Source: Arthrobacter crystallopoietes
GTDB lineage: Bacteria; Actinomycetota; Actinomycetes; Actinomycetales; Micrococcaceae
Assembly: GCF_017603825.1 (NCBI RefSeq)
Contig: NZ_CP072014.1
Span: 2,542,001 to 2,606,000 of the forward strand
Direction: 5' to 3'
Length of the DNA stretch: 64,000 nucleotides
Within the stretch, counting starts at the first letter, position 1, and the number at the start of each line of letters is the position of its first letter. The position numbers and the translations under genes were made by a program. Below, piece by piece: positions 33,730-38,382 of this stretch. The notes under the pieces were generated by a model, which searched no databases, was not told where the DNA came from, and worked only from the letters and a program-made list of their open reading frames with translations.

Positions 33730-34227
33730 TCATGGATTTGGCGTGGTAGTGCCTTGACCGTTCTGGAGCGGGAGCGTCATTTTGTAATTGGTCATCTCTA
33801 CGCCGAGTGTGACGGGGTGCTGCTCGGCGACCACGGTGAACCCGTGCCGCTCGAAGAACGGCCGTGCCGTGATGCTCGCATTGGTGTACAGCTCCGACGT
33901 GCCGGCCATTAACGCAATGCCGTGGAGATGCGTCAGCAGGGCGCCGGCGACGCCGCGTCGACCGAACCTGGGGGCGACAAACATCATGTCGATGTATCCA
34001 TCGTCTCCGAGGTCAGCGAAGCCGGCCACCTCGAACCCGATGGTGGCCACGTAGGTATTGAGCGACGTCCGCGCCAAGTTCCATTGGTTGACGTCCCGTT
34101 CGGCGGGTCGCGCCCATGCGGCGATCTGCTCCGCCGAGTAGTGGACCGCAGCAGTTTCCATCACCGCTGCCAGAAACACGCTCAGAGTAGCTGGCGCATC
34201 GGTTTCGGCGTAAGGCCGGATCTCCAT
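33730..34227 (-). CDS. GNAT-family N-acetyltransferase
   Basis: A 165-aa GNAT protein. The acetyl-CoA binding motif A is DMMFVAPRFGRRGVAGALL (R/Q-x-x-G-x-G/A), with the C-terminal TNASITARPFFERHGFTVV (motif B). It is similar to the YafP-like group with an ETAAVHYSAEQIAAWA segment. Substrate unknown. Monocistronic, divergent from the ppk2 locus. Confidence 0.85.
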   Translation of the reverse strand: MEIRPYAETDAPATLSVFLAAVMETAAVHYSAEQIAAWARPAERDVNQWNLARTSLNTYVATIGFEVAGFADLGDDGYIDMMFVAPRFGRRGVAGALLTHLHGIALMAGTSELYTNASITARPFFERHGFTVVAEQHPVTLGVEMTNYKMTLPLQNGQGTTTPNP

Positions 34228-34347
34228 TCCCTCATTCCATCACGCGGGGCGGCTGCCCGGCCTGCGCCGCAGGTGGAGCGAGTTCACCAACCGTTCACCC
34301 GGCGTTGTTAGAGTGCCGTGAATTCGCGAGCCGGAAGGGGTGGTGGG

Positions 34348-35284
34348 ATGACTCAGGACGGCAAACATTGGTCGATTGAGAATCAAGGCTGGGTCAGGGA
34401 GAACCTGCGCGAGGCCATCGACCAACTGGTGGAGCTGGGCTACTCAGTGCGGGGCGGGCAGGGCGAGGACCCTGAGCTCATTGATCCCGGTGGTTCGGCA
34501 GTGGAGACGTGGCGGGATGACTACCCGTACGACGCACGGATGTCACGGGAAGAATACGAGCTGGAGAAATACCGCTTGCAGGTGGAGCTGCTGAAGTTCC
34601 AGTACTGGAGCCAGGACCATGACCTCAAGCATGTGATCGTTTTCGAAGGCCGCGACGCGGCAGGCAAGGGCGGGACGATCAAGCGCTTCGCCGAGCATCT
34701 GAATCCTCGCGCCGCCCGGACGGTGGCGCTGGGAAAACCGTCCGACCGCGAACAGGGCCAGTGGTACTTCCAGCGCTACATCCACCATCTGCCCACGGCC
34801 GGCGAGATCGTGATGTTCGACCGCTCCTGGTACAACCGGGCCAACGTGGAGCGTGTGATGGAGTTCTGCAGTGCCAAGGAGTACGAGACCTTTATGGGGC
34901 AGGCTCCGGTCTTCGAACGGATGCTGGTCGATTCCGGCATCCACCTCTAGTCGAACTGGTTGAGGAAAAAGCGCATCGCGTTGACCCGCGCCCGCTTCTT
35001 GTCATCGGACTTGATGGTGATCCACGGGGCGTGGTCCGTATCGGTGCGCAGGAATGTGTCTTCCTTCGCCAGGGTGTAGTCCTCCCACCGGTCCAGGGAG
35101 GCAAGGTCCATCGGCGAGAGCTTCCAGCGGCGCACCGGGTCGATCTGGCGGATCGCGAAACGGGTGCGTTGTTCGTGCCGCGTCACCGAGAACCAGAACT
35201 TGGTACGAGGACAAGGACAGCTCCGTAGTTTACGAGCCGGATCCGCTGATTGTGCGCCGCGGCCGCGAGGCAGTAGGCGACTGA
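34348..35284 (+). pseudogene. ppk2: Polyphosphate kinase 2 gene broken by an internal inversion
   Basis: The plus-strand frame (ATG 34348 after GGAAGGGG) encodes 200 residues of a PPK2: N-terminal region, Walker A (IVFEGRDAAGKGGTIKRF) and Walker B (VMFDRSWYNRANVERVM), ending ...DSGIHL then TAG. The missing next part (TKFWFSVTRHEQ... to ...MRFFLNQFD) is present on the minus strand from 35204 to 34947. The last residues (YEDKDSSVVYEPDPLIVRRG, then REAVGD) return on the plus strand at 35204-35284. Re-inverting 34948-35204 gives one uninterrupted frame of about 311 aa, the usual PPK2 size, after removing one extra A. PPK2 makes nucleoside triphosphates from polyphosphate; the split gene should be non-functional. 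Confidence 0.9.
34948..35204 (-). other. 257-bp inverted segment inside ppk2
   Basis: The minus strand encodes TKFWFSVTRHEQRTRFAIRQ then IDPVRRWKLSPMDLASLD, the C-terminal half of PPK2 including the conserved K-F-W-F and W-K-L-S-P motifs. The left junction is CACCTC/TAG and the right is CTTGGT/A/CGAGG, with one extra A as a possible fill-in. Only a 6-bp inverted repeat (CTGGTT at 34956-34961, AACCAG at 35191-35196) lies near the ends, so no site-specific invertase site is evident. Confidence 0.9.
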
Positions 35285-35366
35285 CCCGCAAACGTGAGCT
35301 CCGCCGTCGTCGGCCTACTACGCTGGAGGCAAAGACCGACGACGACGACGAAAGGCGGGGGCGACG

Positions 35367-36653
35367 TTGAACCCACAGCAGCAGGTACAGCAGACCCGGA
35401 TGATCAGCGCGGATGACAAGGGGTTGCCCGGCGACGCGGCCGGCCGGACCGTTGAGGAGTACGTCGCGTCCGGTCCGGACCTGGCGGATTTCTGGACTCC
35501 CATGCTGGTGCTGGACGAGGAAGCCCTGGCGCACAATGTCGCGTTCATGGCCGGCTGGCTGGGCGAGCGGGACCTGGAACTGATGCCGCACGGCAAGACC
35601 ACCATGGCGCCGGAGCTATGGCAGCAGCAGCTCGACGCGGGAGCCACGGGTATTACCGTGGCCAATCCGAGCCAGCTGCGGGTGGGGCGGGCCCGTTCCT
35701 TCAATGCGCTCCTGCTGGCCAACCAGCTCACGGACCCGAACGCCATCCGCTGGGTCGCCGGGGAACTTCAGGATCCGGAGTGCTTCATCTGGTCCTGGCT
35801 GGATAATCCCGCTGCCATCGCCGTTGCCGAAGAAGCCCTGGCCGGGGTCACGCTGGCCCGTCCGCTGTCCGTGCTGGTGGAGCTGGGTGCGCCGGGAGGG
35901 CGGACCGGTTGCCGCAGCGTGGACGAGGCAGTTGCGCTCGCCGAAGCGGTAAACGCCTCACCCGTCCTGCGGCTGGCAGGGGTGGCCGGCTACGAGGGAG
36001 CGCTCGGGCATGACCGGAACGAGGCGACGCTGGACTTCCTCCACCGTTACGTTTCTGATCTGTTGGAGCTGCACCAGAGGATCAGCCCTTTGTACGACGA
36101 CGGCGACGTGCTGGTGACCTGCGGCGGCAGCAACTATCCCGACGTCGTGAGTGAGCTGTTCGCGCAAGCACGGAAGTCCGATACGGCCCGGTATGTCCTG
36201 CGGTCCGGCGCTTACATCATCCATGATCACGGGATCTACCATGCGCTGTCGCCCTTCGACCCGGACCGCGCGTCCGCTGGTGACGAAAGCCTGATGCCGG
36301 CGGCCCGCGCCGTCTGCCGGGTGCTGTCCCAGCCGGAGCCCGGGCTGGCCCTGCTCGACGGCGGCAAGCGGGACTTCCCCTATGACGAGGGTTTCCCGAT
36401 CCCGCTGACCGCTGTGTCCCGGACAACGGGTCAGACTTCCGACCTGCGCGGAGCTACCGTGGGCGGGATGAATGACCAACACTCGTTCCTGCGAACGGCC
36501 GACGGCGCCGAGCCCGCCGTGGGGGACCTGGTGGTGCTGGGACTGTCGCACCCGTGCACCATGTTCGACAAATGGCGGCTGATCCCTGCCGTGGAGAGCT
36601 TCACGCCCGGAGCCAGCGCCAAGGTCACGCGGCTAATCGAGACCTTCTTCTAG
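35367..36653 (+). CDS. PLP-dependent D-threonine aldolase / D-serine dehydratase-like protein
   Basis: A 428-aa fold-type III PLP enzyme. The TTG start at 35367 has AAAGGCGGGGG before it. The PLP lysine lies in LELMPHGKTTMAPELWQ near residue 75. The C-terminal DSD1-type metal site is GLSHPCTMFDKWRLIP (His/Cys zinc ligands), preceded by VGGMNDQHSFL. The family cleaves D-threonine to glycine and acetaldehyde or dehydrates D-serine or D-3-hydroxyaspartate; the exact substrate cannot be set from sequence alone. The gene stands alone between the ppk2 locus and recQ. Confidence 0.85.
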   Translation: MNPQQQVQQTRMISADDKGLPGDAAGRTVEEYVASGPDLADFWTPMLVLDEEALAHNVAFMAGWLGERDLELMPHGKTTMAPELWQQQLDAGATGITVANPSQLRVGRARSFNALLLANQLTDPNAIRWVAGELQDPECFIWSWLDNPAAIAVAEEALAGVTLARPLSVLVELGAPGGRTGCRSVDEAVALAEAVNASPVLRLAGVAGYEGALGHDRNEATLDFLHRYVSDLLELHQRISPLYDDGDVLVTCGGSNYPDVVSELFAQARKSDTARYVLRSGAYIIHDHGIYHALSPFDPDRASAGDESLMPAARAVCRVLSQPEPGLALLDGGKRDFPYDEGFPIPLTAVSRTTGQTSDLRGATVGGMNDQHSFLRTADGAEPAVGDLVVLGLSHPCTMFDKWRLIPAVESFTPGASAKVTRLIETFF

Positions 36654-36705
36654 GCAAGGCGGGGAGCGGCGGAACGGGGGATTTGCGGAACGGGGACCCG
36701 TGGGA

Positions 36706-38382
36706 TTAAGCCGCGCCGCCGCCGTCGGACGTCAGCAGACCTTCATCTTCCTCGATGACTTTCAATGCCAGGTCCCGGTAGCCCACGGAGTCGAAGAGCA
36801 CGGTGATACGGTCCGGCTGGGTGCCCATGACAATCCCGTGGCCCCACTCGCGGTGCGTGACCGGCCGCTGGATCTCGTAGCCCTCCGGCATCGCAGCCTC
36901 GTGCGCCTCGGCCTCAGCCTTAGAGCCCTCTTCGCAGTTGTCGCAGTTGCCGCAGTAGCCGTCAGTCTCCTCGCCGAAGTAATTGAGCAGCCAGTCCCGC
37001 CGGCAGGTGTTCGTCTCGGCATAGCCGCGCGCCATTTCGATGCGCGACTTGTCGATCAGCCGCCGGGACTCGGATTCGGCCAGCGCCTGCTCCACGGCTT
37101 CCTCGGTGCTGATGGAGCCGACGGCGCGGTAGCCCCTGCGGTTCACCGCGATACTGCCGCTGTGCTCAAGCAGATTCAGCACCCGCGTCTGTTTCCGCGG
37201 GGTCAGGCCGGTGTGTTCGCGCAGCCCGGCGGCGCGGATGGGGGAGTGGTCCCGGACGGCCTCGAACACCGCGGCCAGGTCCTCTTCCGCCGGAGTGCCG
37301 CCGACAAAGAACTGCTGCATCCCCAGGTCCTCGGAGCGGTAGTGCAGCACGGCGCGGGCGGGCTCGCCGTCCCGTCCTGCCCGACCGATCTCCTGGTAGT
37401 AGCTGTCCAGCGAGTCGGTGATGTCCGCGTGCACGACAAACCGCACGTCCGGCTTGTCGATACCCATGCCGAACGCGGTGGTGGCCACCACGACGTCCAC
37501 CTCGTTGGCGTGGAAGCGCTCATGGATGGCCGCGCGCTCGGAGGCCTTGCGGCCTGCGTGGTAGGCATCCGCCCGCAGCCCGCGCCCGGCGAGCTCCGCC
37601 GCGTAGAACTCGGTGTCCTTGCGCGTGGCGGCGTAGAGCAGACCCGGCCCCTGGAGCTCCGCGAGTTGGTCCAGCACAGCGTCCCGCTTGCCGCGTTCCT
37701 CGTGGTGGCGCTGCACGCTAAGGTTCAGGTTGGGGCGGTCAAAACTGTGCACATAGATGTGCGGATCGCGCATGCCCAGCCGGTCCACGATCTCGTTGCG
37801 GGTCTGCGGGGAGGCAGTGGCGGTCAGTGCGATCACCGGCGGATGGCCCAGCCGCTTCACCACTGCGGTCAACGTGAGATAGTCCGGTCGGAAGTCGTGC
37901 CCCCACGATGAGATGCAGTGCGCCTCGTCCACTACAAACAGGCTGATGTCCTGCTTGGCGAGCCGCGCCATGGTCTCCTCGCGGGCCAGCTGCTCCGGCG
38001 CCAGGAAAATGAACTTCGCCTCCCCGTTCTCCATCGCCTCCCACGCGGAACGCTCTGCCTTGGCACGTACCTGCGAGTTGATGGCGAAGGCCCGTTCCGC
38101 CTGCAGGTCCGCGTTGATGGCCTCCACCTGGTCGCGCTGGAGTGCCAGAAGGGGCGAAACAACGACGGCGGTGCCCGCCATTGCCATGCCGGGCACCTGA
38201 TACACGGCCGACTTTCCGTGCCCGGTGGGCATGACGGCGAGAACGTCCCTGCCGCCAACGGCTGCTTCCATGGCTTCGAGCTGGCCCTCGCGAAGGGTCT
38301 CCATGCCGAAGGAATGCTCCGCGATGTCCCGCAGCTGTTCCGTCGTCGGCCGTTCTGAAATGTCTTGTTCTACGTTTGCCAC
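36706..38382 (-). CDS. recQ: RecQ-family ATP-dependent DNA helicase
   Basis: A 558-aa SF2 helicase that unwinds DNA in recombination repair; GTG start at 38382. Motif I is MPTGHGKSAVYQVP, motif II VVDEAHCISSWGHDFRPDY (DEAH), motif III ALTATASP, and motif VI QEIGRAGRDGEPA. The RQC zinc site uses the cysteines in CRRDWLLNYFGEE and GYCGNCDNCEEG. The C-terminal HRDC domain of longer RecQ proteins is absent, replaced by a short tail with GIVMGTQPDRITVLFDSVGY. A -10 TAATAT lies on the minus strand at 38447-38452. Confidence 0.92.
   Translation of the reverse strand: MANVEQDISERPTTEQLRDIAEHSFGMETLREGQLEAMEAAVGGRDVLAVMPTGHGKSAVYQVPGMAMAGTAVVVSPLLALQRDQVEAINADLQAERAFAINSQVRAKAERSAWEAMENGEAKFIFLAPEQLAREETMARLAKQDISLFVVDEAHCISSWGHDFRPDYLTLTAVVKRLGHPPVIALTATASPQTRNEIVDRLGMRDPHIYVHSFDRPNLNLSVQRHHEERGKRDAVLDQLAELQGPGLLYAATRKDTEFYAAELAGRGLRADAYHAGRKASERAAIHERFHANEVDVVVATTAFGMGIDKPDVRFVVHADITDSLDSYYQEIGRAGRDGEPARAVLHYRSEDLGMQQFFVGGTPAEEDLAAVFEAVRDHSPIRAAGLREHTGLTPRKQTRVLNLLEHSGSIAVNRRGYRAVGSISTEEAVEQALAESESRRLIDKSRIEMARGYAETNTCRRDWLLNYFGEETDGYCGNCDNCEEGSKAEAEAHEAAMPEGYEIQRPVTHREWGHGIVMGTQPDRITVLFDSVGYRDLALKVIEEDEGLLTSDGGGAA

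Follow-up and report, generated by a model that had tools for sequence, protein, structure and literature searches.

A 257-bp inversion within the class I polyphosphate kinase gene ppk2 of an Arthrobacter crystallopoietes genome

RESULTS

The ppk2 locus

The 64,000-nucleotide stretch of DNA analysed here (the window; positions 2,542,001 to 2,606,000 of contig NZ_CP072014.1) belongs to an Arthrobacter crystallopoietes genome, here called G000, which is 4,381,539 bp long, consists of one contig and is 99.88% complete. It holds a class I ppk2 gene that lies in three pieces. The 5' part (34348 to 34950, plus strand) encodes residues 1 to 200 of the protein at 34348 to 34947, including the sequences GRDAAGKGG and FDRSWYNR, which we take to be the Walker A and Walker B motifs, and it ends in a TAG codon (34948 to 34950) that arises from the left junction. 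The segment that follows (34948 to 35204) is inverted; its codons 201 to 285 run from 35204 to 34950 on the minus strand, and an inverted TA occupies 34948 to 34949. The 3' tail (35204 to 35284) is again on the plus strand and gives the final 26 residues and a TGA, the T at 35204 being common to the tail and the inverted segment. A preliminary description of this DNA, made from its letters, had proposed a ppk2 gene interrupted by a precise in-gene inversion of 257 bp. The sequence itself, the profile matches and the homology blocks in relatives all bear this out, and the length is correct when the inverted TA is counted. As sequence, the inversion is real and was correctly described.

The two larger pieces match consecutive positions of the class I PPK2 profiles, with the gene split between them by the inversion. 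With NCBIfam TIGR03707, profile positions 1 to 137 are found on the plus strand and 138 to 222 on the minus strand, without a gap, and with Pfam PPK2 (PF03976), positions 2 to 136 and 139 to 221 are divided in the same way. Each piece alone falls below the TIGR03707 cut-off of 301.8 (231.5 and 114.1 bits); the intact protein of the relative G001 scores 373.7 bits. A complete kinase domain in one frame is not found at this locus, as the TAG follows residue 200 and the remainder lies on the opposite strand. The class assignment comes from the asparagine that follows FDRSWY in the 5' open reading frame (ORF), since PMC8776046 gives asparagine after the Walker B FDRSWY as the class I signature and glutamate at that place as that of class III. 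A whole-genome PPK2 profile search found the inverted segment once, giving the two opposite-strand pieces and one further uninterrupted PPK2 elsewhere, and thus the segment was moved rather than copied.

Order of the gene in relatives

The DNA of the locus was searched in nine other genomes of the genus, among them G001, G003, G006 and G007. G001 is the closest of the nine at ppk2, and the best matches are those to G001 and to G003, the ppk2 of which is the same as that of Arthrobacter sp. SF27. Compared with the window, G001 aligns in three blocks, at 33767 to 34947 (plus, 90.8% identity), 34944 to 35204 (minus, 97.7%) and 35204 onward (plus, 92.8%), and G003 gives the same plus, minus and plus blocks with 86.8, 94.3 and 91.2% identity. 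Both relatives have one uninterrupted ppk2 frame of 311 amino acids, so that the ancestral order is known without re-inverting anything.

Wider sampling gave the same picture. A search of named genomes matched 576 relatives, and in all of the best 80 of these the two ppk2 parts are contiguous on one strand; the inverted order occurs in 0 of the 80. We also searched 149 genomes of the family with the G001 PPK2 protein at a threshold of E ≤ 1e-60, at which 107 matched, some only through distant PPK2s of about 50% identity, and 42 did not. The row for G000 in that search covers residues 1 to 218 with the TAG inside, and it is the only one of the 149 that ends near residue 200 with the remainder on the other strand. 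Four other rows, chosen because they seemed short, broken or distant (G146, G037, G059 and G133), were fetched and read base by base, and none of them holds an inverted part; G133 is uninterrupted over residues 65 to 290. The exact left junction is absent from every fetched locus except that of G000 itself. Every relative checked has the other order, and the inverted state is therefore a derived one that, within this sample, occurs in G000 only. An inversion hotspot at ppk2 was rejected, as no second inversion was seen in the best 80 of the 576 named loci or in the 149 family genomes, four rows of which were read.

Several homologues are irregular in other ways. Among the 80 named loci five are odd: two, both from the draft assembly of Arthrobacter sp. 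Soil736, contain internal repeats, two are cut by a contig end, and one has an alignment that runs across an early stop. Of the two Soil736 loci, L010 repeats 165 bp internally and has an N at the join, and L015 aligns in overlapping blocks in two frames; these repeats probably reflect misassembly of two similar ppk2 copies. In the family, the PPK2 homologue of G146 (L168) is frameshifted and reads in two frames. That of G037 (L169) has an in-frame stop, no match was found for its final ~60 residues and the locus holds 10 N. The match in G059 (L170) lies in two frames of one strand. These three homologues suggest that ppk2 is decaying in other lineages as well.

Isolation of the inversion in the genome

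A contiguous 600 kb of G000 was scanned for inversions against 640 kb of G001, following a comparison of 400 kb with 400 kb. About 519 kb were collinear, or 12% of the genome, and in this alignment ppk2 is the only inversion of at least 80 bp. The final form of the scan recovered 111 of 115 planted inversions of 40 to 250 bp; an earlier form, which recovered 0 of 31 planted inversions of up to 120 bp and 21 of 21 of 250 to 600 bp, gave the same single candidate. The final scan returned 39 minus-strand matches on the diagonal, namely ppk2 and 38 matches of 20 to 73 bp, and as the latter were taken for self-complementary stretches, the scan speaks for inversions of at least 80 bp only. A genome-wide source of inversions, biological or artefactual, was rejected on this result from 12% of the genome.

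The scan also bears on a possible artefact of assembly or library, with an unbroken ppk2 on the chromosome itself. The case is known from assembled sequence, and draft relatives show apparent assembly faults in the same gene (L010 and L015). However, G000 is a single contig of 99.88% completeness, the inverted segment occurs once and is not duplicated, its ends have no long repeat that might mislead an assembler, and no other inversion of this size was seen in the ~519 kb. We consider an artefact unlikely.

Junctions and end sequences

In G001, the left break falls between codons 200 and 201 (between CTC and ACC) and the right break inside or beside the TAC codon 286 (between GAC and TAC). In G000, the left junction (34945 to 34950), where the inverted segment starts, joins CTC to TAG, the reading across it being CTC then TAGTC, and shows no microhomology, and the right junction (35201 to 35207) joins CTTGGT to ACGAGG with no more than 1 bp of microhomology. 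G000 has the TA of codon 286 twice, once in each orientation, and one T is shared at the right join. Accordingly the locus measures 937 bp in G000 and 936 bp in G001, a net gain of one base with no coding sequence lost, and the preliminary description was right to count a single extra base.

Inverted matches at the breaks were measured on G001, with 2000 random pairs of points, spaced 255 bp apart and drawn from the same 12 kb, as the control. The longest match within 10 bp on either side was 4 bp, which 69% of the random pairs reached. Within 15 bp it was 6 bp (reached by 17%), and within 25 and 40 bp it was again 6 bp (reached by 47 and 81%). A 6-bp inverted repeat had been reported at the ends; 6-bp matches do exist near the breaks, but at chance level only. 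The accompanying proposal, that the ends lack Hin-type repeats and that end joining is to be preferred to a Hin-type switch, holds up, given inverted matches that do not exceed chance, 0 to 1 bp shared at the joins and one base added.

The nearest mechanistic rival to end joining is replication template switching, in which the polymerase copies the opposite strand for about 256 nt and then returns. The two breaks have a 4-bp inverted match, CCTC/GAGG, and template switching at inverted repeats is discussed as a source of microinversions in PMC8755829. Against this, the match is at chance level, the joins lie off it, the left one lacking the adjacent base and the right one keeping two bases more, and that paper itself doubts two switches within repeats of 3 to 4 nt. 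We think that this mechanism is improbable for ppk2.

The ends also bear on a programmed invertible element, or inverton, that would turn ppk2 on and off. The precise ends and the recency of the event fit such an element, a DNA segment flipped inside a gene is what it shares with invertons, and intragenic DNA inversions were reportedly described by Chanin et al. in 2024. The cognate recombinase of an inverton often lies nearby; of three genomic matches to the serine recombinase family PF00239, the nearest to ppk2 is about 194 kb away (tyrosine recombinases were not searched). Invertons carry inverted repeats of 10 to 40 nt, as stated in PMC11892184, whereas no repeats of that length, and only chance-level matches, were found at the ends of the G000 segment. 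The other orientation is likewise absent, with 0 of the 80 named relatives showing an alternative order. Because of the added base, moreover, an exact flip would fail to restore the ancestral frame: judged by eye, flipping back 257 bp would lead to a stop after residue 285, and flipping back 256 bp would shift the frame at residue 201. The extra base, the chance-level repeats and the lack of another orientation in relatives together make a programmed switch highly improbable, and the suggestion of a live ON/OFF switch of polyphosphate use was not borne out. One could still imagine a repeat-independent activity that flips the 257-bp segment and reversibly switches polyphosphate use, the flipped-back product being a 285-residue PPK2 without the 26-residue tail, and this we regard as just as improbable.

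Age of the inversion

Compared with G001, the 5' part of the gene has 6.5 nonsynonymous and 30.5 synonymous changes (dN 0.014, dS 0.273), and the inverted part has 2 and 3 (dN 0.010, dS 0.055). No further stop or frameshift was found in either part. Most of the divergence was thus gathered under constraint, which indicates that the inversion is young, and the preliminary description had likewise called the event recent.

The inverted part has markedly fewer synonymous differences than the 5' part among G000, G001 and G003 (window positions 34948 to 35284 against L155 and L153), and at fourfold sites G000 and G001 differ at 3 of 40 in the 3' third and at 20 of 88 elsewhere. The lower synonymous divergence of the 3' third, which had raised the idea of a second function hidden there, was not seen in comparison with more distant loci. 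It is seen, less strongly, between G001 and G003, both of which are intact, and so cannot be put down to the inversion alone; recombination or overlapping constraint are possible causes.

Consequence for the enzyme

Class I PPK2 enzymes phosphorylate nucleoside diphosphates from polyphosphate. The inversion very probably killed this gene, as the predicted product, a 200-residue stump without the rest of the kinase domain, is probably dead. This product lacks residues 201 to 285. One of these, residue 219, is aligned with R178 of the Francisella tularensis PPK2 (5ll0); in that alignment, from which the numbering is taken, K66 and R118 fall on the Walker A lysine and the Walker B arginine. In the Francisella enzyme, replacing K66, R118 or R178 by alanine caused a dramatic drop in activity (PMC8776046).

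The genome retains related kinases. The further uninterrupted PPK2 has a glutamate after FDRSHY and scores over the TIGR03709 cut-off, and is thus of class III type, and a PPK1 profile match lies in a 765-amino-acid frame. The class I gene seems dispensable in the family, given the 42 of 149 genomes without a match, and its loss is not unusual, as G006 gave no match to the G001 protein at the same threshold and G007 has another stretch in place of the gene. The loss would be tolerated in A. crystallopoietes with PPK1 and the class III-type PPK2 remaining and a class I enzyme that seems dispensable in the family.

The G007 locus (L154), set against window positions 33731 to 36707, still has the MFS gene, the gene downstream and the RecQ-like gene. 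The GNAT gene and ppk2 are replaced there by a different stretch of about 730 bp, with an ORF of about 220 amino acids: similarity to the window breaks off ahead of the GNAT gene and returns only for the final 15 bp of ppk2. The DNA search gave no ppk2 hit in the rest of G007.

DISCUSSION

We think it likely that G000 recently lost its class I ppk2 through a microinversion that arose when DNA broken at two places was sealed by end joining. A piece of about 256 bp would have been freed by two double-strand breaks close to each other, or by a single break and a second cut during processing, and may have been put back in reverse through non-homologous end joining (NHEJ) by Ku and LigD, with an end of 1 to 2 nt filled in at rejoining. 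We infer the two breaks and the joining by Ku and LigD from the form of the joins. End joining typically leaves joins that share few or no bases and carry small additions, and the ppk2 joins, with 0 to 1 bp shared and one base added, are of that type. The genome encodes Ku in a 311-amino-acid frame that scores over its profile cut-off, and three stretches score above the cut-off for the LigD polymerase domain: one lies next to Ku (the pair at G000:C1:964128-965573) and two are elsewhere (3104119-3104853 and 3092093-3092830).

Several points weigh against this account. Both ppk2 pieces look as if under purifying selection relative to G001, which speaks for recency and not for decay, and the stump retains both Walker motifs, so that it may have some residual function. 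For LigD, the search covered the polymerase domain. The case comes from the assembled genome of a single strain of the species, so that fixation of the inversion in the culture and the correctness of the assembly are presumptions. Two breaks 256 bp apart within one gene should be rare. In PMC8755829, two-break NHEJ is called highly unlikely for the cases treated there, in which the breaks would be about 20 nt apart; at 256 bp this objection is weaker but not void.

The G000 inversion can be compared with other known inversions. Like the human and chimpanzee microinversions of PMC8755829, it is short and precise with intact flanks, and it differs in measuring 257 bp without repeats above chance. 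Spontaneous inversions in Salmonella are also chromosomal inversions without a dedicated system, and in PMC3411829, 5 of 7 tested were confirmed, with repeats of at least 12 bp. The G000 joins, with 4 bp at most, thus fall outside that repeat-mediated class. Set beside invertons, the G000 segment shows no repeats above chance, has no serine recombinase match nearby and was seen in no second orientation. In a literature search that left subscription journals outside its scope, neither the G000 case nor a comparable repeat-free bacterial in-gene inversion was among the matches listed, and the parts available of PMC2483231, PMC9282665, PMC3519483 and PMC11868660 describe no comparable case. The inversion is ordinary in kind, with repeat-free joins that are somewhat unusual, and it reveals no new system. 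A 558-amino-acid ORF that resembles a RecQ-type helicase, as read from the sequence, lies at window positions 36706 to 38382, 1.4 kb from the inversion; no link between the two is claimed.

The locus offers a clean and recent case in which a microinversion with no repeats at its ends has disrupted a bacterial gene, here in an actinobacterium with genes for Ku and a LigD polymerase domain. At such a locus, standard annotation would probably give a short PPK2 or a gap, and inversion finders that look for inverton repeats would presumably miss it. For the organism, the finding suggests the loss of its class I enzyme, with PPK1 and a class III-type PPK2 remaining.
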